A stretch of DNA of 52,971 nucleotides from Cochliopodium minus (lineage: Eukaryota; Discosea; Himatismenida; Cochliopodiidae), in the NCBI GenBank assembly GCA_024220525.1, contig JAMYWO010000007.1, positions 278,683-331,653 on the forward strand, in the 5' to 3' direction. Shown here piece by piece: positions 9,019-38,453 of this stretch. Within the stretch, counting starts at the first letter, position 1. The number at the start of each line of letters is the position of its first letter. Position numbers and translations under genes: made by a program. Under the pieces are notes generated by a model, which saw only the letters and a list, made by a program, of their open reading frames with translations, was not told where the DNA came from and searched no databases.

Positions 9019-9612
9019 TCAAAAGAAGTTATGAAAAGAATGATTTGTTTCGAAAAAATTCATGCTTTGTTTACTTCCTCCATGATTAAGAAAACTGTCG
9101 TCTCCAAAGAAGTTTTTGAGATAAAATGTTTCGTCGAAATCTTCAATTTGAAAGTTGACTTCGAAATTCATATCGATAGGAACATGTAGAAACTTGAAAT
9201 CCTCTGCATTGATCTGATTATTCATTGGGAGATCCACATCTTCCTTTTTGATTTTTTTATTATTGATTGGGATGGTTGATATTTCTTGGATGATATTGTG
9301 TTCATCCTCCATCTTTCTTTTATTCATCAATCTTCTTTGTTTCCTTTGTTCCTTTTTCTTTTTTGCCAATTCTAATTTTCTCTTCTCCAAATTTTCTTTG
9401 GTGGTATTGAATGGTCTTCCTCTTTTCTTTTCCGACAAATTCACTTCGCATTTCCATCCCTTTTCCAAGCAATGAGAACATGTTGGAAACATTTTATCGC
9501 ATTTGTGATGTATCCTTGAACAATTCTTGCAAGATATCTTGTGAATTGTATGCGGATAATTAATATTCCCTCCACAGTTATTATCTTTCAAATCATTTTT
9601 TATTATTTCCAT
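9019..9612 (-). CDS. Zn2Cys6 (fungal-type zinc cluster) transcription factor with AT-hook
   Basis: A 197-residue single-exon gene. Residues about 29-53 hold six cysteines (CKNCSRIHHKC, then CSHCLEKGWKC) spaced C-x2-C-x6-C-x6-C-x2-C-x6-C, the binuclear zinc cluster of the GAL4 type, which binds DNA. Directly after it comes KKRGRPFNTTKE, whose RGRP core is an AT-hook, and then a long basic helix rich in Lys/Arg that may be a nuclear signal or a coiled coil. The C-terminal half is acidic and contains VPIDMNFEVNF. The paralogue at 10736-11386 has the same three parts in the same order. No fungal middle-homology region is present, so this is a short, stripped form. It is likely nuclear; its targets are unknown. 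Zn2Cys6 proteins are dominated by fungi but are also known from some amoebae. Confidence 0.8.
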   Translation of the reverse strand: MEIIKNDLKDNNCGGNINYPHTIHKISCKNCSRIHHKCDKMFPTCSHCLEKGWKCEVNLSEKKRGRPFNTTKENLEKRKLELAKKKKEQRKQRRLMNKRKMEDEHNIIQEISTIPINNKKIKKEDVDLPMNNQINAEDFKFLHVPIDMNFEVNFQIEDFDETFYLKNFFGDDSFLNHGGSKQSMNFFETNHSFHNFF

Positions 9613-10735
9613 TTTTATATCTTGTTTATGTTTTATGGATTGGTGTGTATTGAAATATTTTGAAAGATTATGTCAATCTTTTGTATTTTGTGTGATTTCT
9701 TTTTTTTTTTTTTTTTTTTTTGATTTTAAATTATTATTTTTTTTTTTTATATATATAATTTTCCTTTTATATTTGAGAGAAATTCCAAGCGAATTAAAAT
9801 TTTCCACCCTCCACCTAAAAGAAAATTCAATAATATTCAAAAATTTAATAAAACTATCTTTTCTCAATTTCATTCCACCACAAAATCAGTGAAGAATCTT
9901 TACAAAGATATCAACTTCCTCCAACAATGAGAAACATGAAATCAATATAAACCTCCTCAAGTAATTGAAATATAAAACATATCAAACCAGTTTTTCTATC
10001 AAATTTACATTAAAGGTTCATCAAATAAATTAAAGAGTTAAAACATTTTTAATTCAAAAATGTTTATGTAAGGCTTCATAAAATTGATCATAGATTAAAC
10101 ATAGGAAAATTAAATAAATTTTATAAATTTTTGCTCAGTAAAAAATAAATGTGATTTAACAAAAATAAATAAAAGAAATTGAGGAATCCATTTCAAAATG
10201 TATTTGAGGAAATATGAGGAAATAAAATAAATTATTTTATTTTATCTCCTCTTTAACGCAGAATTAAATTTTGATTGAAAATTGTAATGAAATAAACTAT
10301 AATTCACAATTTTGTTTAAAAATTATTTATTTGAGATGAGACTCGGAGAATAGATTGAAACTTCAAGATCCCAAAAACTCACATCTTTTTTCTTTTGTTT
10401 TGAGTAAGTTTTTGTTGTTATTTGAGTGCCATCATTTAAATTTAAAGAAATTCAAAGATAAAAAATGAATGTCATTAAATAAAAACGAATTTTTTTGGTT
10501 GCAATTTCAATAAACGAAAATAAACAATATTAATCCTCTAATTTTGAATGATCATAGATAAATCTTTAATTTTTTTGCACTTTTTTTTTATCATTTATCT
10601 TAATTTTTAAATTTCACCTAAATTGAATTTTATAAAGTATTGATAAAGATTTTTATTGCAATGAATTCCGAACAAAATTGTTTTTTTTTTGAATAAAATA
10701 CACTTTTACCCCGAGATTCCAAGAATGGAAAAGTT
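9613..10735. other. Intergenic region between the two zinc-cluster genes
   Basis: About 1.1 kb, very AT-rich, with a T homopolymer near 9700-9722 and only short low-complexity frames. Both neighbouring genes are on the minus strand, so this holds the promoter of the 9.0 kb gene and the 3' end of the 10.7 kb gene. I see no shared operator-like motif. Confidence 0.5.
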
Positions 10736-11386
10736 TCAGAGAAAAGGATATTCATCTGGGAAAAAATTATGAAAATTTTCATTTTCAATCTTCTGTTGAT
10801 TGTTGGAATTTTTGTTCTCCAGTTCGTTATTCAAGAACTGAATATCATCACCAAAATTGAATTCATAATTCATATCAATTGGAACCTGGCCAAAAGAGTA
10901 ATTGTTGTTGATACTTTTGTAATCACTTCCAAAATTAGCATCAGAGATTGGAGTATTTTCAATGGTGCCAAACTCTTTGGAGTGGATCAAAGGATTATCT
11001 TCTAAATTCACCTTTTTTTTCTCGTTTAAAAATTTTTCTTTTCCAACTTCTTGTTTGATTATTTTCGTTTTCAACAGTCTCTTCTTTTGTGCTTTCTTTT
11101 TTTGCTCCTTCTTCTTTCTGGCCAACTCTATCCTCTTCTTCTCCAAGTTTTCTTTCGTGGTATTGAATGGTCTCCCTCTTTTCTTTGATGAGTAATTCTC
11201 TTCACATTTCAATCCTTTTTCTGCACAGTGAGTGCATGGAAACAATTTATCACATTTGTGATGTATTCTGGCGCAATTTCTACATGAAATCTTGTGAATT
11301 GTGGGTATGATCTCTTCATTCTTTGGGATTAGAGGTTTATTGTCTTTAATCTCATACTTTATGAGATCATTTATCCTATTAGTCAT
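10736..11386 (-). CDS. Zn2Cys6 zinc-cluster transcription factor with AT-hook, paralogue
   Basis: A 216-residue single-exon gene, the sister of the gene at 9019-9612. The cluster reads CRNCARIHHKC then CTHCAEKGLKC, with the middle gap one residue shorter (C-x2-C-x6-C-x5-C-x2-C-x6-C), which is still within the family range. The AT-hook block KKRGRPFNTTKE is identical to that of the sister gene. A Lys-rich helix follows, then a linker unlike the sister, then the shared motif VPIDMNYEFNF near the C-terminus. Same strand, about 1.1 kb apart: a tandem duplication of moderate age, since only the DNA-binding block and the C-terminal motif remain alike. The C-terminal motif being kept while the linker drifts suggests that it contacts a partner; that is an inference. 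Confidence 0.8.
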   Translation of the reverse strand: MTNRINDLIKYEIKDNKPLIPKNEEIIPTIHKISCRNCARIHHKCDKLFPCTHCAEKGLKCEENYSSKKRGRPFNTTKENLEKKRIELARKKKEQKKKAQKKRLLKTKIIKQEVGKEKFLNEKKKVNLEDNPLIHSKEFGTIENTPISDANFGSDYKSINNNYSFGQVPIDMNYEFNFGDDIQFLNNELENKNSNNQQKIENENFHNFFPDEYPFL

Positions 11387-11879
11387 TTTTATTGTAGGTT
11401 TTATACTTGAAATATAGTTTAAATTTTTTTTTTATCATTATATTTTATAATATTTTTTATTTGGCCAAAAAGAACTCGGCAAGGAATTTCGAATATTTTA
11501 CCAGAATGATCATTCTTTCCAATTGACAAATCAGCGAGGTTTCATTTAATTTTGGCCGATATGATTTTAAAAAAAATAAGACAAAAAAAAAAAAAAATGA
11601 GAAATTTAGCCAATAAATCAAATATTGATTGAGGATTCATTCAAATTTGGAGAGACTATCTTAATTTCACAAAAACATTTGTATATATTAATATTAAAAG
11701 AAAACTTTAAAAATTATCAAGGCTAATCAAAAAAATTCAATTAAATCAAATATACCTCATCATCATCTTTTTGTTCAAATAAAGAAGCCCAATTTTATTT
11801 ATTATTAATCATAAACCGCCAAAAAATTTGAAATAAAAAAAATTGAAAAAAATAACGAATTACTTTTAAAATAAAAAAA
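11387..11879. other. Intergenic, divergent promoter region
   Basis: About 490 bases between the start codons of two divergent genes. AT-rich with an A run at 11583-11596; a GC-richer patch at 11460-11565 (CTCGGCAAGG, TTTGGCCGATATG) could hold regulatory sites. No gene seen. Confidence 0.45.
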
Positions 11880-17100: not shown

Positions 17101-18289
17101 CGAAAGACTCTTCCAAAACGGCCTCATCTTCGTCTTGTTCTTCTGGGAGAAAGCCGTCATCACCTCCATCGTCTCCAAGAACCTCGTCGCCCACATCATG
17201 CGTAACAGGAAGACCTCCATGATGTACGCCCTCTCTCTTTCTTTCTTGTTGTATATTTCTGTATCTTATAACACTCAGATTAACTCTGTAACTTTCAGGT
17301 TAGAAAAGAGAGGTAAAAATCTTTTTTTTTCTTTTGAGGGTATTTACTCTTAATTTTGGATTTTTTTTTTTTTACTAATTTTAGTAAATATTGAATTTTT
17401 TTGTTTAAATTTATTTTAAAAAATTATCTTTTATTCAAATATTTTTTCATTTTTTATTTCCAAATATTGATATTTATTTTTTATTTTTTGATATTTAATT
17501 CTTTTTTTTTTATTTGTTTCATTTCTTTAAATAATTTTAATTTGACATTACATTTTTTTTTCAAGATTTTTGTTTATTTAAGAATTAATTGTTTTATTTT
17601 TTTGTTAAATATTTTTTAAATATTTTTATTCATTTGAAGGTGGGGCTTATGTCAAGGTGGTCATTACTCCTTTTGACAAACAAACTACATTCCACAGCTT
17701 GAATGGAGTGAGATCAAGACTTGAGTCTTACGCCAAAAACAATCCTCTCATACAAGGTGATTTCTCAAATATTTTTTATTTTATTTTTTATTTATTTTTC
17801 ATTTTATTATTTTTATTTTTCATTTTATTACTATTATTTATTTTATTATTTATTTTTTCAATTAATTATATTTCAATTAGTTCATTTTTTTTTATCATTT
17901 ATTATTTTCAAAAATTTTTATTTTTTAATATTTTTAATATTTTTTATTTTTTTTATTTTTCAAATATTTTTTAATTTTTTTTTTTGAAAAGATGTTTCAT
18001 GGATGTCATTGAATATGTACGAGGCGAACAAAGAATTCAATAATTTTTATGTTTCGAACATTGGTCGAATAGCGCAGAGGAGTCAGCTTCTGTATGGGAC
18101 CAGCCCCAACACCTTCAAAATAAAGGGTTTTACCCAATATGCCATCATTGAATCTTCTGCAAACTACATTAAGGTATTTTTTTATTTTTGTTCTTTTCTA
18201 TTTTTATTTTTTTATCTTTTTATTTTTTATTTTTTATTTTTTATTTTTTATTTTTTATTTTTTATTTTTTATTTTTTATTTTTTATTTT
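14143..18289 (+). CDS. FtsX/ABC3-type large membrane permease, 3' end in gap
   Basis: Ten or more exons run into the N gap. A small first exon (14143-14228) ends at GTAAGT and joins 14426 in phase, so the true N-terminus is MNIQENEDVDNV, upstream of the methionine at 14442. Exon 2 carries the first membrane helix (VLGVGAVFVVVVSVALLL), then a large extracytoplasmic part (to about 15,650). After it come the paired helices IFSIFFGLVLNLIIFFLC, MISVDSRKFEMGVTRM and GLTRSELIKLLLCQG, the hallmark of the FtsX (ABC3) permease domain. A second extracellular segment starts near 17,640. Such proteins usually move or extract lipids, or couple an ABC ATPase to outside events; no ATPase is visible here. Exons between 15,000 and 17,240 use far more G/C-ending codons than neighbouring genes. 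The C-terminal permease domain is probably in the gap. Confidence 0.7.
18205..18289. repeat. ATTTTTT low-complexity repeat at gap edge
   Basis: Near-perfect repeats of a TTTTTTA-type unit in what should be an intron of the permease gene, ending at the N run. It explains the failure to assemble across. Confidence 0.85.
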
Positions 18290-19159
18290 NNNNNNNNNNN
18301 NNNNNNNNNNNNNNNNNNNNNNNNNNNNNNNNNNNNNNNNNNNNNNNNNNNNNNNNNNNNNNNNNNNNNNNNNNNNNNNNNNNNNNNNNNNNNNNNNNNN
18401 NNNNNNNNNNNNNNNNNNNNNNNNNNNNNNNNNNNNNNNNNNNNNNNNNNNNNNNNNNNNNNNNNNNNNNNNNNNNNNNNNNNNNNNNNNNNNNNNNNNN
18501 NNNNNNNNNNNNNNNNNNNNNNNNNNNNNNNNNNNNNNNNNNNNNNNNNNNNNNNNNNNNNNNNNNNNNNNNNNNNNNNNNNNNNNNNNNNNNNNNNNNN
18601 NNNNNNNNNNNNNNNNNNNNNNNNNNNNNNNNNNNNNNNNNNNNNNNNNNNNNNNNNNNNNNNNNNNNNNNNNNNNNNNNNNNNNNNNNNNNNNNNNNNN
18701 NNNNNNNNNNNNNNNNNNNNNNNNNNNNNNNNNNNNNNNNNNNNNNNNNNNNNNNNNNNNNNNNNNNNNNNNNNNNNNNNNNNNNNNNNNNNNNNNNNNN
18801 NNNNNNNNNNNNNNNNNNNNNNNNNNNNNNNNNNNNNNNNNNNNNNNNNNNNNNNNNNNNNNNNNNNNNNNNNNNNNNNNNNNNNNNNNNNNNNNNNNNN
18901 NNNNNNNNNNNNNNNNNNNNNNNNNNNNNNNNNNNNNNNNNNNNNNNNNNNNNNNNNNNNNNNNNNNNNNNNNNNNNNNNNNNNNNNNNNNNNNNNNNNN
19001 NNNNNNNNNNNNNNNNNNNNNNNNNNNNNNNNNNNNNNNNNNNNNNNNNNNNNNNNNNNNNNNNNNNNNNNNNNNNNNNNNNNNNNNNNNNNNNNNNNNN
19101 NNNNNNNNNNNNNNNNNNNNNNNNNNNNNNNNNNNNNNNNNNNNNNNNNNNNNNNNNNN
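18290..19159. other. Assembly gap (870 N)
   Basis: Unknown bases. The gap removes the 3' end of the permease gene and the 5' end of the helical-protein gene that resumes at 19347. Whether these are two genes or one cannot be seen. Confidence 0.99.
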
Positions 19160-19346
19160 CTTTATATATTCATATTAATAATCCAATTCTTATGAGCCTC
19201 TGGATCAAAAAATCCTTTACATATATACAAAATCACTTATACAGAATCTAAATATGAGGTTTGATCTCAATTTAAGAATTTTTCGGGTGCTGTGTTTTAT
19301 TAATATTTTTTTATTTTGTTTTGTTAACTTTTTATTGATTACTTAG

Positions 19347-22605: not shown

Positions 22606-23805
22606 TCAAATATTTGTTATTTTCGTTCCTTTTGAAACATTTTGGCACAATATTGCTTGTTTAGAATATTCAGTTCCAGCTTTAACAATATAAACATCAA
22701 TACCCATTTTGGCTATCAAAACTGAATTTTTAATTTTTGTTAGAATCCCTCCTTTTTGAAAAAAAAAAAAAAATTGATATTAATTCTCTGAAAATTCTGA
22801 TTTAAAGTTTCATTTATTAAAAAAATTATACCAGTTACATCTTTTTCAACTGTTTCAATTTCAATTTGATTTTCAATATTAAAATTTTGATTTGAAACAT
22901 TTATTTTATCCAGTAATATTTTATCTTTCATGTTTTTATAAACTCCTTCCACGTCACACAAAAATATCACTCTTTTAGGCCTGAACAGCGAAGCCAGATC
23001 CTTAATAATCACATCACCAGATATCACCGAAATGTTTTGAAGATCATTGAAAATTACATCTCCGTGCAAAACAGGGATAATATTCTGGTTTAACAATTTA
23101 TTTATTATAATCAATGCATGTGTATTGCTCCCTTTGATATAATGTCGTAAAAAATTTTTTTATATTTATTATTTGTTTATTTGTTAATTTTTTTTTTGTT
23201 TCATTCATTTTTATTTTAATTTTTTTTTACATCCATTTTTGTCTATGAACCCAGTTGTACATGGAGGAATTCCAACAACACTTATCCCATTTAACAAAAA
23301 TCTCTCCACAACCAAATTGTTGAGTTGCCTGAGTCCCAAATGGGTTTTTGAGAAACCCATCATCTTCCTTTCTATTTTTTCTTTCTCATCTTTTTCATTA
23401 TTGAATCCACTTGATACCTCATATTCCTTGGCAACAATGTGCCCATCTTTTTATTTTAAGTTTTAGTTTTTTTGCATAATTTTTTTATTTACATGATCCT
23501 GCTCCTATTTTTTTAAAACAAAAAAAAATTCAATTTCAAATTTCAAAGAAAAATTTTATATTTTAACCATGTACTAATATAACTCTTATTTTATTAGATA
23601 ATGCTTCTTTGATTTGGATTATGATTTTATCCAAAATTTCCATGTTTGGGCAATCTTTCTCTTCTTTATTTGTTATGCCTTTCATAAATTTTCAAATAAA
23701 AAGTATAGCAAAAATATAAACAAATTTACATGAACCACCCATTTTTATTATAATGATGGGAACTTTATGATCAAAATTTGAATTCTCAATCTTTTCTTCT
23801 TTCAT
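22606..23805 (-). CDS. IPK: Isopentenyl phosphate kinase
   Basis: Six minus-strand exons give a complete amino-acid-kinase-fold protein. In order: IIIIKMGGSCITNK (phosphate-binding first strand); VILVHGAGSYGHIVAKEY, the glycine-rich loop and the histidine typical of isopentenyl phosphate kinases; GFSKTHLGLRQLNNLVV; VVGIPPCTTGF; IIPVLHGDVIFND; VISGDVIIKDLASLFRP; VIFLCDVEGVY; EKDVTGGILTKIKNSV and MGIDVYIVKAGTEYSK. The enzyme phosphorylates isopentenyl phosphate to isopentenyl diphosphate with ATP, serving an alternative end of the mevalonate pathway. The HGAGS loop is made by a 12-nt micro-exon (23493-23504) between two introns. The start codon at 23805-23803 is only 24 bases from that of the divergent F-box gene at 23830. 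Acetylglutamate kinase and other fold members lack the catalytic histidine seen here. Confidence 0.9.
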
Positions 23806-23829: not shown

Positions 23830-25222
23830 ATGAAAAATACAACACTTGATATACCTATTAAAGTATTCCCAAAACCATGTAAACTCAAAATTTGAATCTT
23901 AATTGCTTATCCCAAATAATACAGCGAATTTCAAAAATATAAAAGAAATATATTTATACTTTCTCTTGAATACGTCATATCATATATCCTATTCCAAAAT
24001 TAAAATATTTAATTTATGTTAGTGTGGATTCATCTTCTTTCCTATTTGGATGGAGAATCACTGAGAAAATCATTCTTGGTGAATAAAAGTTGGAGAGATT
24101 TGGGATGCGATCCAAAACTTGATGAAATCTCAAACAGAGGAATCATCAGCAAAATCAAAAAGATCGAAAACTTGAATATCTTTCAAAAAATAAACTCGAT
24201 TTTCACCTACAACTACGATCTCAAAATATATTTTGATAGAACAAAAGAAAAAAGAAAGATTATAAGATTGTTCGTTAATCTACATTTGTTTCTCAAAATA
24301 TTTCCTAATCTTTTTGTCTGTTTAGCTTTTCCAAATGGTTATTCTATTTTTGGGCTGACTCTTTCATTTCTTAATTCTTTTACTCAAACTTTCTCGGTGA
24401 ACAACTTTTCTTTTTTATATTATTACGAGATGTTGATGTATGCATATGCAGTTTACAAATTTGAATTTCATTTTCTGGTCCCTTTCTTGTTTTCTTTTTA
24501 CTTGTAAAAATAGAACGATTTCGTTTTTAAAATTTATCTTTTTTCAATTAGTGTAAATTTTGGAGCTAATTCATTTCACTCTTCTTTATTTTTGAGAAAA
24601 TTTTCAAGAAGTCAACTTTTGATAAGTAAGTACACTTTATTCACATTATCTTGTTTATACTTTTAACACTTTTATAATCAATAACAAAAGACGCAGGAGA
24701 GTATCCTACACAATCTTTCGTAAAAGCATCAGTCATTCCACCCATCATCTATTTGGTATTCTTCAAACAATTTTTTTTTTAAAAAAATTAAATAATTTTA
24801 TATTTATTTGATAGTGTCAAAGTCGAACCAACACAATCTACTCCTTCTTTATTTCAATAGTCATTTTACTGGTTGTTCGTGTTCTGGGGACAAATGTCAT
24901 TAAGATCGATTATTTGAAAGAAAATACTTTTATTTTTTTGATTCTTCAACTTTTTGTGAAATCGTTTCAAATCTCCAAATATTCTTCAGATATCTTTTTG
25001 ATGGGATTTCTTCAAATGTTTAATATTTATGCCCTTTTTGAAATGATCACCTATTCTCGTGCTATTTTCTTAAAGTTTGTCAATTTTGAAGAGAAAAATG
25101 GAAAGTTTGTTAGTGCACCAAGAGAAGTTGATCCTATTGTTAATTTGGTCAATTTCTACTGTCTTTTTGTTGTTCAGATTGTTTTAATCTTTTTGTATTC
25201 ACTCAATTATCTTTTCAATTAA
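23830..25222 (+). CDS. F-box protein with multi-span membrane region, tandem copy 1
   Basis: Exon 1 is 23830-23878 and encodes MKNTTLDIPIKVFPKP. It splices at a TTAG acceptor to 24023, giving FPKP-LWIHLLSYLDGESL, then RKSFLVNKSWRDLG: a textbook F-box of about 45 residues, the Skp1-binding element of SCF ubiquitin ligases. The ATG at 24016 is not conserved in copies 2 and 3 and falls inside the intron. After about 60 polar residues come roughly seven hydrophobic segments, including NLHLFLKIFPNLFVCLAFP and LVNFYCLFVVQIVLIFLYS. Two short middle exons each encode part of this region. The stop lies 21 bases before the ATG of copy 2. An F-box on a polytopic membrane protein suggests a membrane-anchored ubiquitin-ligase adaptor or receptor; this is inference. 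Confidence 0.75.
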
Positions 25223-25243
25223 AAATAATTAAAAAAAAAAAAA

Positions 25244-26774
25244 ATGAAGATCAGATCTCTTGATACACCAAATAAAGTATTCCCAAAGCAATGTAAAATT
25301 ACTTTTACTTTTTATGCTTATTATGATGAAATTATAAGGAAATAAATTATATTCACATTGAAATTTGCTTAATACCATCATATCCATTCATATATCCTCT
25401 AAAATAAACAATAATATCTATCAAAATATTTAATTTGTGTTAGTGTGGATTCATCTTCTTTCCTATTTGGATGGAGAATCACTGAGAAAATCATTTTTGG
25501 TGAATAAAAGTTGGAGAGATTTGGGATGCGATCCAAAACTTGATGAAATCTCAAACAGAGGAATCGTCACTAAAATCAAAAAGATCGAAAACTTGAATAT
25601 CTTTCAAAAAATCAATTCTATTCTCACCTACGACTACGATCTCAAAATATATTTTGATACAACAAAAGAAAAAAAAAAGATAGTGAACATGTGGGTGAAT
25701 ATCCTCTTGTTCCTCAAATTATTTCCCCACTTTTTTTTATTTCTCATCTTTCCAAATTGGTTTGTAGGAGCAGGGCTCATTCTTTCAATCATAGAATGTA
25801 TTTTTACCAAATATTATTATGTTTATATCACCCATGTATCGTAAGTAGTTACCAATCTTTTTTCATCATTGATGTGTTTTTTAAATATTTTTTTTTTGAT
25901 TCTCCTTTAATAAAAAAAAAAAAATAGATCTGGTTTGTTATTTGTTTACGACATGATCATTTATGGTTACGCAATTTACAAATTTGAATTCCACTTTCTT
26001 TTTCCATTCTTGTTTTGGTTTTATTGGTAATATAAATTAAATTCAATTATTTTTTAATTCAATTTATTTTCATCAACATTTTTCATTTTATTTCTTCCTT
26101 GAAGGATCAATTTAGGTGTTAATGCAGTTTACTCTGGAAAATTTTTAAAAATGGTTTCTAACAGTTCCCTTTCGAGTTGTAATAATTTGTTTCCCACCAA
26201 TTTAATCTTGAATACAATAATTTAATTCTTACAAGATATTGGAGAAGCTTCGATGGAAATCATCACAAAAGGATTTTTTATACCTATTTTGATCTATTTG
26301 GTAAAAAAAAACTTTAAATTTTTAATGATTTTTTTAATTCCTTATTTCAATAAAAAGTTTCAAAACCGTATCAACACAATCTACTCTTTCTTTGTTTCTT
26401 TAATTTTGTTGGTGGTTGTTCAAGTTTTAAAGAAAAAAGTGGTGTCCCAAACACTCAATGGTTACTTGATCATCATTGTGTTCTTTCAACTCTTTTTAAA
26501 GATCATTCAAATTTCTAAAACATACATGGACTTCTCTTCATCTACCTTTTTAACAAGTTTATTACAAGTGTTTAACATTTACGTTCATATTGAAGTGATC
26601 ACTTATTCTCTTGGTAGTCTCTTTCGTGTAGCTTGCTTCGAAGAGAAAGATGGAAAGATTGTAAATTATACACAAGTATTTGATCCAATTGTTAATTTGG
26701 TCTGTATCTACCTTCTATTTCTTGTTCAGATTGTTTTGATCCTATTGTATTTTCTCAATTATCTTTTCTATTAA
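25244..26774 (+). CDS. F-box protein with multi-span membrane region, tandem copy 2
   Basis: Exon 1 at 25244-25292 encodes MKIRSLDTPNKVFPKQ and splices to 25444 to rebuild the same F-box (LWIHLLSYLDGESL). No ATG exists in the F-box exon, which proves that the upstream exon is needed. The membrane region runs from about residue 100 with segments such as NILLFLKLFPHFFLFLIF; an FEEKDGK loop precedes the last span (LVCIYLLFLVQIVLILLYF). Around 26,041-26,330 the exon edges are less clear than in copies 1 and 3, so I cannot exclude that the middle part is damaged. The F-box exon and its preceding intron are virtually identical to copy 3, while the membrane part has diverged. The ATG follows the copy-1 stop by 21 bases. 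Confidence 0.7.
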
Positions 26775-27298
26775 AAATAATTAAAAAAAAAAAAAAAATG
26801 AAGATCAGATCACTCGATATACCAAATAAAGTATTCCCAAAGCAATGTAAAATTACCTTACTGTTTAAGCTTATTTTGATGAATAATTCAAAGTATATTT
26901 TGAAATTATAAAGGAAATAAATTATATTCACATTGAAATTTGCTTAATACCATCATATCCATTCATATATCCTCTAAAATAAACAATAATATCTATCAAA
27001 ATATTTAATTTGTGTTAGTGTGGATTCATCTTCTTTCCTATTTGGATGGAGAATCACTGAGAAAATCATTTTTGGTGAATAAAAGTTGGAGAGATTTGGG
27101 ATGCGATCCAAAACTTGATGAAATCTCAAACAGAGGAATCGTCACTAAAATCAAAAAGATCGAAAACTTGAATATCTTTCAAAAAATCAATTCTATTCTC
27201 ACCTACGACTACGATCTCAAAATATATTTTGATACAACAAAAGAAAAAAAAAAGATAGTGAACATGTGGGTGAATATCCTCTTGTTCCTCAAATTATT
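25329..27298 (+). repeat. Near-identical 395-base block shared by F-box copies 2 and 3
   Basis: The block at about 25329-25723 recurs at about 26902-27298. It covers most of intron 1 and the F-box exon and differs by a single base indel in the intron near its 5' edge; the flanks on both sides are clearly diverged. Copy 1 shares about 240 bases of the exon part (24023-24262) with some substitutions, but not the intron. Identical non-coding sequence within diverged genes points to recent gene conversion or unequal exchange. Confidence 0.85.
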
Positions 27299-28361
27299 CC
27301 CGAACCTTTTTTTCTTTATGACTTTTTTCAACATTTTCACTGCAATAAGGCTCTCAATCTCCATACTTGAATGCATTTTTACGAAATTTTTCTCCAAAAA
27401 TTTTACTTTTCCAATGTAAATCTTTTTTCAAATTTTTTTTTAATTTGATCATTCCAATCATTTTCTTTAAGTACTGTTTTGGCTTTTTTTTACGACATTC
27501 TGCTTTATGGATACGGAATATATATGTTTGAATTCCACTTTCTCACACCCTTCTTGTTTTGGTTTTATTGGTATTTGGAATTAACAAATTTATTTTTAAA
27601 AATTTTTTTGTTCATTTGTTTTTAAAACTAGGATCAATCTGGGAATTAGTGTCGTTTATTCGAGTTTATTTTTAAAAATGATAGCGAATAGTCCTCTTTT
27701 AAATTGTAAATTTTCTTTAAACATTTTTTTTAATGAATGACTTTCTTAATTTTAGACGCAGAACATTCTTCTTCTTTCATGGAACTCTTTCTAATTACAA
27801 AAGCATTTATTATTCCTCCCATTATCTATTTAGTAATTTTAAAATTTTTCTTTAATTTATCGTTTTAATTTTTTATTTTATTTTTTTTTTGTTTTCTTTT
27901 TTATAGTTTTAATTTATTATAACAAAAATTTTTTTAAAAATAAGTTTCAAAATGGTACCAACACAATCTGTTCTTTCTTCTTGTCTTGTTTTTTTTTGTT
28001 GATTATGACTGCTATTAAGAAAAAGATAAGGTATTATGGGCCAAATCGATCTCACTACATCATTCTGGGTGTTCAACTTGTTGTAAAATCAGCTCTGATT
28101 ATAACCAATTTCTTGGATTTTTCTTTTCTTACCGTCTTAATTAGTTTTCTTCAAGTGTTTAACATTTATGTAATTGTTGAAATGAACTCTTATTATTTGA
28201 GTTGTCTCTTTAAAGTTTCAGTTTTTGAAGAGAAAGATGGAAAGATCAGAAACACATCTCAAACTGTTCATCCGTTTGTTAATCTCGTCATTTTTTACTT
28301 TCTTTTTGTTGTTCAGATCGTTTTGATCCTTTTGTATTTTCAAAAATATCTTTTCAATTAA
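26798..28361 (+). CDS. F-box protein with multi-span membrane region, tandem copy 3
   Basis: Exon 1 at 26798-26846 encodes MKIRSLDIPNKVFPKQ and splices to 27019 to form the F-box. The F-box exon matches copy 2 base for base up to about 27298, then the sequence changes abruptly at the first membrane segment. Further exons carry LAFFYDILLYGYGIYMFEFH, INLGISVVYSSLFLKM, ELFLITKAFIIPPIIYLV and a final exon with CSFFLSCFFLLIMTA, VLISFLQVFNIYVIVEM, the loop FEEKDGKIRN and LVIFYFLFVVQIVLILLYF. About 400 residues, seven or eight spans. The FEEKDGK loop and the Phe/Val-Gln-Ile-Val-Leu last span are shared by all three copies. Same strand and 23 bases after copy 2. Confidence 0.75.
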
Positions 28362-36302: not shown

Positions 36303-36394
36303 AGTGGCACATGAATTAAGTTAAATCTGTTTTATAATTTGAAAGAAAAAGAAATTTTGTAAATAAAAAAATGAATTTAAAAAAGTTTTATCTT

Positions 36395-38360: not shown

Positions 38361-38453
38361 AATGTCAAAAGAATTTACTTAAAATCTGTTTTATATTTTG
38401 AAAGAAAAAGAAATTTTGTCAATAAAAATATATTTTATCAAAAAGTTTTTGGG

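Follow-up and report, generated by a model that had tools for sequence, protein, structure and literature searches.

Known membrane-resident ubiquitin ligases are mostly RING proteins, and cullin-based ligases reach membranes mostly via soluble or lipid-anchored receptors. For instance, HRD1 and Doa10/MARCH6 carry RING domains with direct binding of the ubiquitin-conjugating enzyme (E2), and FBXL2 and FBXL20 are CAAX proteins. Other F-box proteins are described with lipid anchors as well, including TgFBXO1, in which a consensus site for myristoylation is reported (PMC6685633), and the farnesylated AnkB of Legionella (PMC5506055). The nearest described case that we found is CFB (cytokinin-induced F-box) from Arabidopsis, which is reported to bind the SKP1 homologue ASK1 via its F-box, to reside partly at the plasma membrane and to have two relatives (PMC5853388). 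Here, we analysed a window of 52,971 nucleotides from Cochliopodium minus (assembly GCA_024220525.1, contig JAMYWO010000007.1, positions 278683-331653; contig C7 in the following, in a genome of 44.65 Mb and 598 contigs), in which four genes, designated A to D, encode an F-box, the motif through which proteins attach to a ubiquitin-ligating complex, followed by a multi-span membrane region. On the basis of sequence analysis, the proposal that these are real F-box genes with a polytopic membrane domain, serving as membrane-resident substrate receptors of Skp1-cullin-F-box (SCF) ligases, is regarded as evenly poised.

Genes A, B and C form a tandem array on the plus strand (23830-28361), and D is located on the opposite strand. 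Gene A (23830-25222, 358 amino acids) is assembled from exons 23830-23878, 24023-24503, 24552-24625, 24691-24755 and 24815-25222, gene B (25244-26774, 366 amino acids) from exons 25244-25292, 25444-25840, 25928-26026, 26105-26178, 26236-26300 and 26358-26774, and gene C (26798-28361, 370 amino acids) from exons 26798-26846, 27019-27415, 27472-27570, 27632-27705, 27756-27832 and 27945-28361. Gene D (37870-36395, minus strand, 411 amino acids) consists of exons 37870-37795, 37710-37287, 37220-36752 and 36661-36395, and its product features an N-terminal F-box, about 130 mostly soluble residues and then seven hydrophobic segments. All 17 introns of the four genes, 48-172 bases in length, are of the GT..AG type, and all four frames close upon manual splicing. 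Intron 1 splits the F-box in each gene; the motif FPKQ, which the initial annotation gave for all three tandem genes, reads FPKP in A. A single open frame in gene A (24013-24507, plus strand; first codons and last codon intronic) runs from inside the F-box into the first hydrophobic spans, and matching frames lead from the F-box interior to the first spans in B (25434-25844) and C (27009-27419). Since one exon carries part of the F-box together with the first spans, the possibility that F-box and membrane exons belong to separate transcripts, raised in the initial annotation, is unlikely for A, B and C; in gene D, the F-box and the spans are on different exons.

Genes joining an F-box to a multi-span region, whose counting had been suggested along with the original observation, occupy at least 15 loci in the genome, probably 16 with the paralogue C49, which is counted by homology only. 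These loci fall into three membrane types of nine, six and one. The first type comprises A, B, C, the three C105 copies (C105a, C105b and C105c), C126, C59, whose membrane part is a rough model, and probably C49. The second type comprises D, three further copies on contig C7 beyond the window (C7x, C7y and C7z), C155 and C107, and the third is the single locus C53 (L060), combining an F-box (E 7.8e-14) with a Tmemb_185A-like region (PF10269; E 5.2e-4, 20.2 bits, below the cut-off of 23.1). D had been taken for a divergent fourth member of the A-C group, yet it is a member of the second family, since comparison of the A-C family (seven rows) with the D family (six rows) by hhalign aligned only 38 columns, which correspond to the F-box. 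In the A-C family alignment (A1), C126 was joined by eye about five residues short of the supported splice, and C59 and C49 were excluded; in the D-family alignment (A2), the end of C155 was set by eye from a merged model.

A free-standing membrane domain was searched for with B as query, whose 10 matches all lay within A, B and C themselves (a weak test, as the C105 copies were missed), and with D as query, which gave six matches, in D, C155 and the copies C7x, C7y and C7z; no free-standing copy was seen. Using patterns taken from the F-box and linker instead of the membrane spans, no relatives of either family were found in viral contigs, and the D family (A2), the one family searched for prokaryotic relatives, had no match in the genome contigs collection. 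A genome-wide F-box search yielded 469 candidates, of which 150 were scored and all 150 exceeded the cut-off, giving at least 150 F-box matches. That all F-box genes of this organism are membrane-bound was considered and rejected, because only C53 among the 30 best-scoring loci had at least three hydrophobic windows beyond the F-box; L046 had two. These 30 loci (L042-L071) are the top of the score list and not a random sample, and they include one without a usable model (L059), one with part of the F-box only (L049) and six whose models reach the locus end.

Other apparent F-box fusions were seen by eye in rough models, including RING plus WD40 repeats in L043, a protein kinase in L051, Rho/Ras-like GTPases in L058 and L070, and kinesin plus U-box-like parts in L065. 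Directly upstream of the C105b gene, L020 (6667-8360) encodes an F-box-like start and RCC1-like repeats, also judged by eye, and the gene finder merged the two genes. A cytochrome P450-like gene, again recognised by eye, is located near the C105 copies and suggests an aerobic organism.

Splicing of exon 1 to exon 2 in A, B and C is supported by comparison with the paralogues: in C126 and C59, the stretch matching the exon 1 junction is present unspliced in a single frame, and in the C105 copies intron 1 is found at the same site, with the split codon TTA instead of the TTG of A-C, both encoding Leu. The models of A-D rest on manual splicing, since the gene finder made a single gene of A, B and C and chose a start for D that skips most of the F-box; having been trained partly on A-D, the finder offers no independent evidence where it recovers them. 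For D, the manual model was chosen, since its F-box recurs in the other copies of the family. In C105b and C105c, part of the F-box had been removed as an intron by the gene finder and was restored from the open genomic frame.

The identity of the F-box, a motif of some 40 residues, was assessed by Pfam and by profile comparison. The Pfam scan covered 14 proteins, with C59 represented by its F-box exon only, C49 modelled without its first exon, and C7z and C105c left out. The Pfam F-box-like family matched D over its cut-off (E 1.8e-8, 34.4 bits) and A, B and C with E-values of 6.6e-4, 6.1e-4 and 6.5e-4, respectively (about 20 bits). C7x, C7y, C105a, C155 and C53 also exceeded the F-box-like cut-off, and C107 exceeded that of the F-box family; C105b and C126 stayed below with about 20-21 bits, in the range of A, B and C, the C59 F-box exon scored 14.0 bits and the truncated C49 model gave no match. 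A profile built from the paralogous F-boxes, with the window genes excluded, scored B, C, A and D at 64.0, 63.6, 59.9 and 49.8 bits, compared with 9.8 bits for the best control, drawn from 2000 shuffled versions of the four N-termini and from 458 further open reading frames (ORFs) of the window. The signal across the two families appears thin: a profile of the second family only gave 12.2, 11.8 and 10.1 bits for B, C and A versus 9.5 for the best shuffle, and a profile from the other first-family copies gave 13.2 bits for D versus 11.7 for a window ORF. When a profile of 11 family F-boxes was compared with the PDB, 34 distinct sequences matched at E <=1, the best being FBXL2 (E 5.9e-10); 32 of them are F-boxes or F-box-bearing proteins, a few of which we take to be so from the name of the protein, with BAG5 and eL14 as the only exceptions.

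As to the partners of an F-box, six Skp1 matches over cut-off were found in the genome, and cullin matches over cut-off are present on several contigs (best E 4.8e-90), indicating that an SCF ligase is probably available. At C245:34118-37684, a Skp1 match and three F-box matches in tandem were found, with about 1.3 kb between the Skp1 match and the closest F-box match, and the ORFs listed for these F-box matches show no membrane part.

Averaged hydropathy, from which all segment counts derive, revealed nine hydrophobic segments in the A-C family (seven rows) and seven in the D family (six rows). In the nine-segment reading of the A-C family, Lys and Arg account for 127 of 725 residues in even loops versus 12 of 136 in odd loops, and a cytosolic N-terminus is favoured by these basic residues. 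The membrane halves of six gene pairs showed ratios of nonsynonymous to synonymous substitution (dN/dS) of 0.33-0.44 at synonymous distances (dS) of 0.93-1.51, rough values obtained by the Nei-Gojobori method with Jukes-Cantor correction on our own gene models, with dS near saturation and with pairs that are not all independent, three being among A, B and C. These ratios indicate that the membrane exons are constrained as protein. The spans were also considered as an artefact of AT-rich DNA, in which T-rich non-coding sequence would yield Phe/Leu/Ile-rich peptides, and this explanation was rejected, as the ratio stayed within this range in all six pairs.

No Pfam membrane family exceeded its cut-off in A-D, and no seven-transmembrane receptor family, G protein-coupled receptors included, did so among the proteins scanned. 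C7y matched TM7S3_TM198 with E 0.0067 and 16.6 bits, below the cut-off of 29.2. A RING family was reported neither for A-D, at E up to 10, nor for the scanned paralogues. PDB profile searches of both families gave convincing matches at the F-box end only; a formate-nitrite transporter match of the D-family alignment (E 0.12) was regarded as insignificant.

A mosaic of near-identical and diverged halves was observed among the tandem copies. B (25336-25723, plus strand) and C (26911-27298, plus strand) share a tract of 388 identical bases that extends from the 3' portion of intron 1 through the F-box portion of exon 2 and the linker into the beginning of span 1, and their identity falls to 62% over 25701-25840. 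Likewise, 388 identical bases are shared by C105b and C105c, and identical tracts of up to 138 bases occur in the F-box half of C7y and C7z from the second family. The dS values of the F-box half versus the membrane half are 0.04 versus 0.96 for B/C, 0.05 versus 1.51 for C105b/c and 0.13 versus 1.51 for C7y/z, so that a near-identical F-box half stands beside a strongly diverged membrane half in three tandem pairs of two families (the window pair, L039 and L020+L021). The F-box half is under constraint in A/B, with a dN/dS of 0.34. Purifying selection alone was rejected as the cause of the identity in B/C and C105b/c, since intron 1 is part of the identical tract, with 108 of its 151 bases in B and its full length in C105b, and since the dS values of the two halves differ by factors of 24 and 30. 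Gene conversion of the 5' half would be the simplest cause, and it agrees with a coupling module held in common while the membrane modules diverge. A 5'-biased conversion without function, starting preferentially near promoters, would leave the same pattern.

The initial annotation is supported in its central point, an F-box joined to a multi-span membrane protein in tandem, by the gene models and profile scores as well as by the paralogues and the constraint seen at codon level. If these proteins are SCF substrate receptors, the N-terminal F-box would most likely face the cytosol and dock Skp1, by which the cullin and E2 would be brought to the membrane. The membrane domain would stand in for the usual WD40 or leucine-rich repeat (LRR) substrate receptor and would bind a ligand, or a client in or at the bilayer, with different partners for different copies. 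One coupling module common to some tandem copies would be held alike by gene conversion, and the membrane modules would diverge. A wider design can be suggested tentatively, with less confidence than the receptor function itself: gene conversion would keep a common F-box module constant, the membrane recognition module of each copy would evolve on its own, with three membrane types in this one genome, and the resulting membrane-embedded SCF receptors would choose membrane clients or ligands.

Several observations weigh against the substrate receptor reading. The scores of A, B and C are under the curated Pfam F-box-like cut-off of 24.3 bits. Hydropathy over the A, B and C rows alone gave eight segments instead of nine, which corrects the seven or eight spans originally described to eight or nine for A-C, depending on the rows, and seven for D. 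The charge signal is weaker in the same three rows (25/149 versus 31/248), and none was seen in the D family (79/513 versus 35/218). Neither Pfam nor the PDB profile searches of both families identified a known membrane fold or client-binding site. The contrast in dS between the two halves is missing in C7x/C7y (1.18 versus 1.42) and weaker in A/B (0.23 versus 0.93).

Three other explanations have to be weighed against the substrate receptor. The proteins could be ordinary transporters or channels whose F-box calls the SCF ligase to the protein itself or its complex, leading to its own turnover or endocytosis with no other clients. Half or most of each protein consists of the membrane domain, which evolves under purifying selection, and a common handle for degradation would fit with one F-box shared by different membrane cores; no transporter or channel family exceeded its Pfam cut-off in the 14 scanned proteins, a result with which a transporter is still compatible, and self-directed turnover is considered rather unlikely. 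A receptor-coupled ligase, in which an external ligand is sensed by the membrane domain and, on binding, switches Skp1 docking or client access, is judged improbable to the same degree. Many spans, tandem copies, diverging membrane halves and a common, presumably cytosolic module would agree with such a receptor, but the Pfam scan found no receptor family over cut-off and the predicted loops are mostly short.

The F-box itself could act outside a Cul1-type ligase, in dimerisation or tethering, or could have lost Skp1 binding by decay. In general, F-box proteins that work without SCF are known, and the sub-threshold scores of A-C, about 20 bits, are consistent with this explanation. On the other hand, the F-box half is conserved in A/B and near-identical in the three tandem pairs, and the PDB profile matches are almost all F-boxes, which makes a non-SCF or decayed F-box the least probable of the three and quite doubtful.

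The window is AT-rich, with a GC content of 15-34% per 2 kb, the minimum falling in a stretch that contains unknown bases, and its eukaryotic character is evident from gene structure and content. Masked or unknown bases occupy about 18283-19161. On the minus strand, an ORF at 9019-9672 has a match to the Zn(2)-Cys(6) cluster of the fungal type (E 4.1e-9) and resembles by eye a further ORF at 10736-11431. An ORF at 22740-23159, also on the minus strand, matches the amino acid kinase family (E 2.3e-11), with an apparent resemblance to isopentenyl phosphate kinase. A 74-base repeat with 81% identity is found just 3' of the D stop (36316-36389) and just past the stop-side end of an LRR frame on the same strand (38375-38448).

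Among the described systems, CFB resembles A-D in having, besides the F-box, a membrane segment but no further known domain (PMC5853388). CFB is reported with one predicted transmembrane helix near the C-terminus, whereas A-D have seven to nine hydrophobic segments, and the portions of the CFB report available to us contain no tandem F-box/membrane mosaic like that of the A-C copies (PMC5853388). HRD1 and Doa10/MARCH6 are alike in placing ubiquitin ligase function on a multi-span membrane protein (PMC10776854). In contrast to these polytopic RING ligases, the F-box of A-D, which have no RING match, would recruit a cullin ligase through Skp1. Lipid-anchored F-box proteins also hold the F-box at a membrane, as A-D would, but their anchor is a lipid tail and not a polytopic domain. 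TMEM185-like proteins (PF10269) are resembled below cut-off by the paralogue C53, and A-D have no such match.

No F-box protein with several spans was found in the open-access literature among the matches listed, which is weak evidence of absence, and any novelty at the level of the family is provisional. The undescribed system suggested in the initial annotation is too strong a term, and A-D are better seen as a known adaptor principle arranged in a new way. What is new here is the presence of tandem copies with a near-identical F-box half and a strongly diverged membrane half, which, together with three unrelated-looking membrane types, provides a testable hypothesis of modular client choice. 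If the proposal is true, the large cullin system could read the bilayer directly by means of a multi-span F-box protein.

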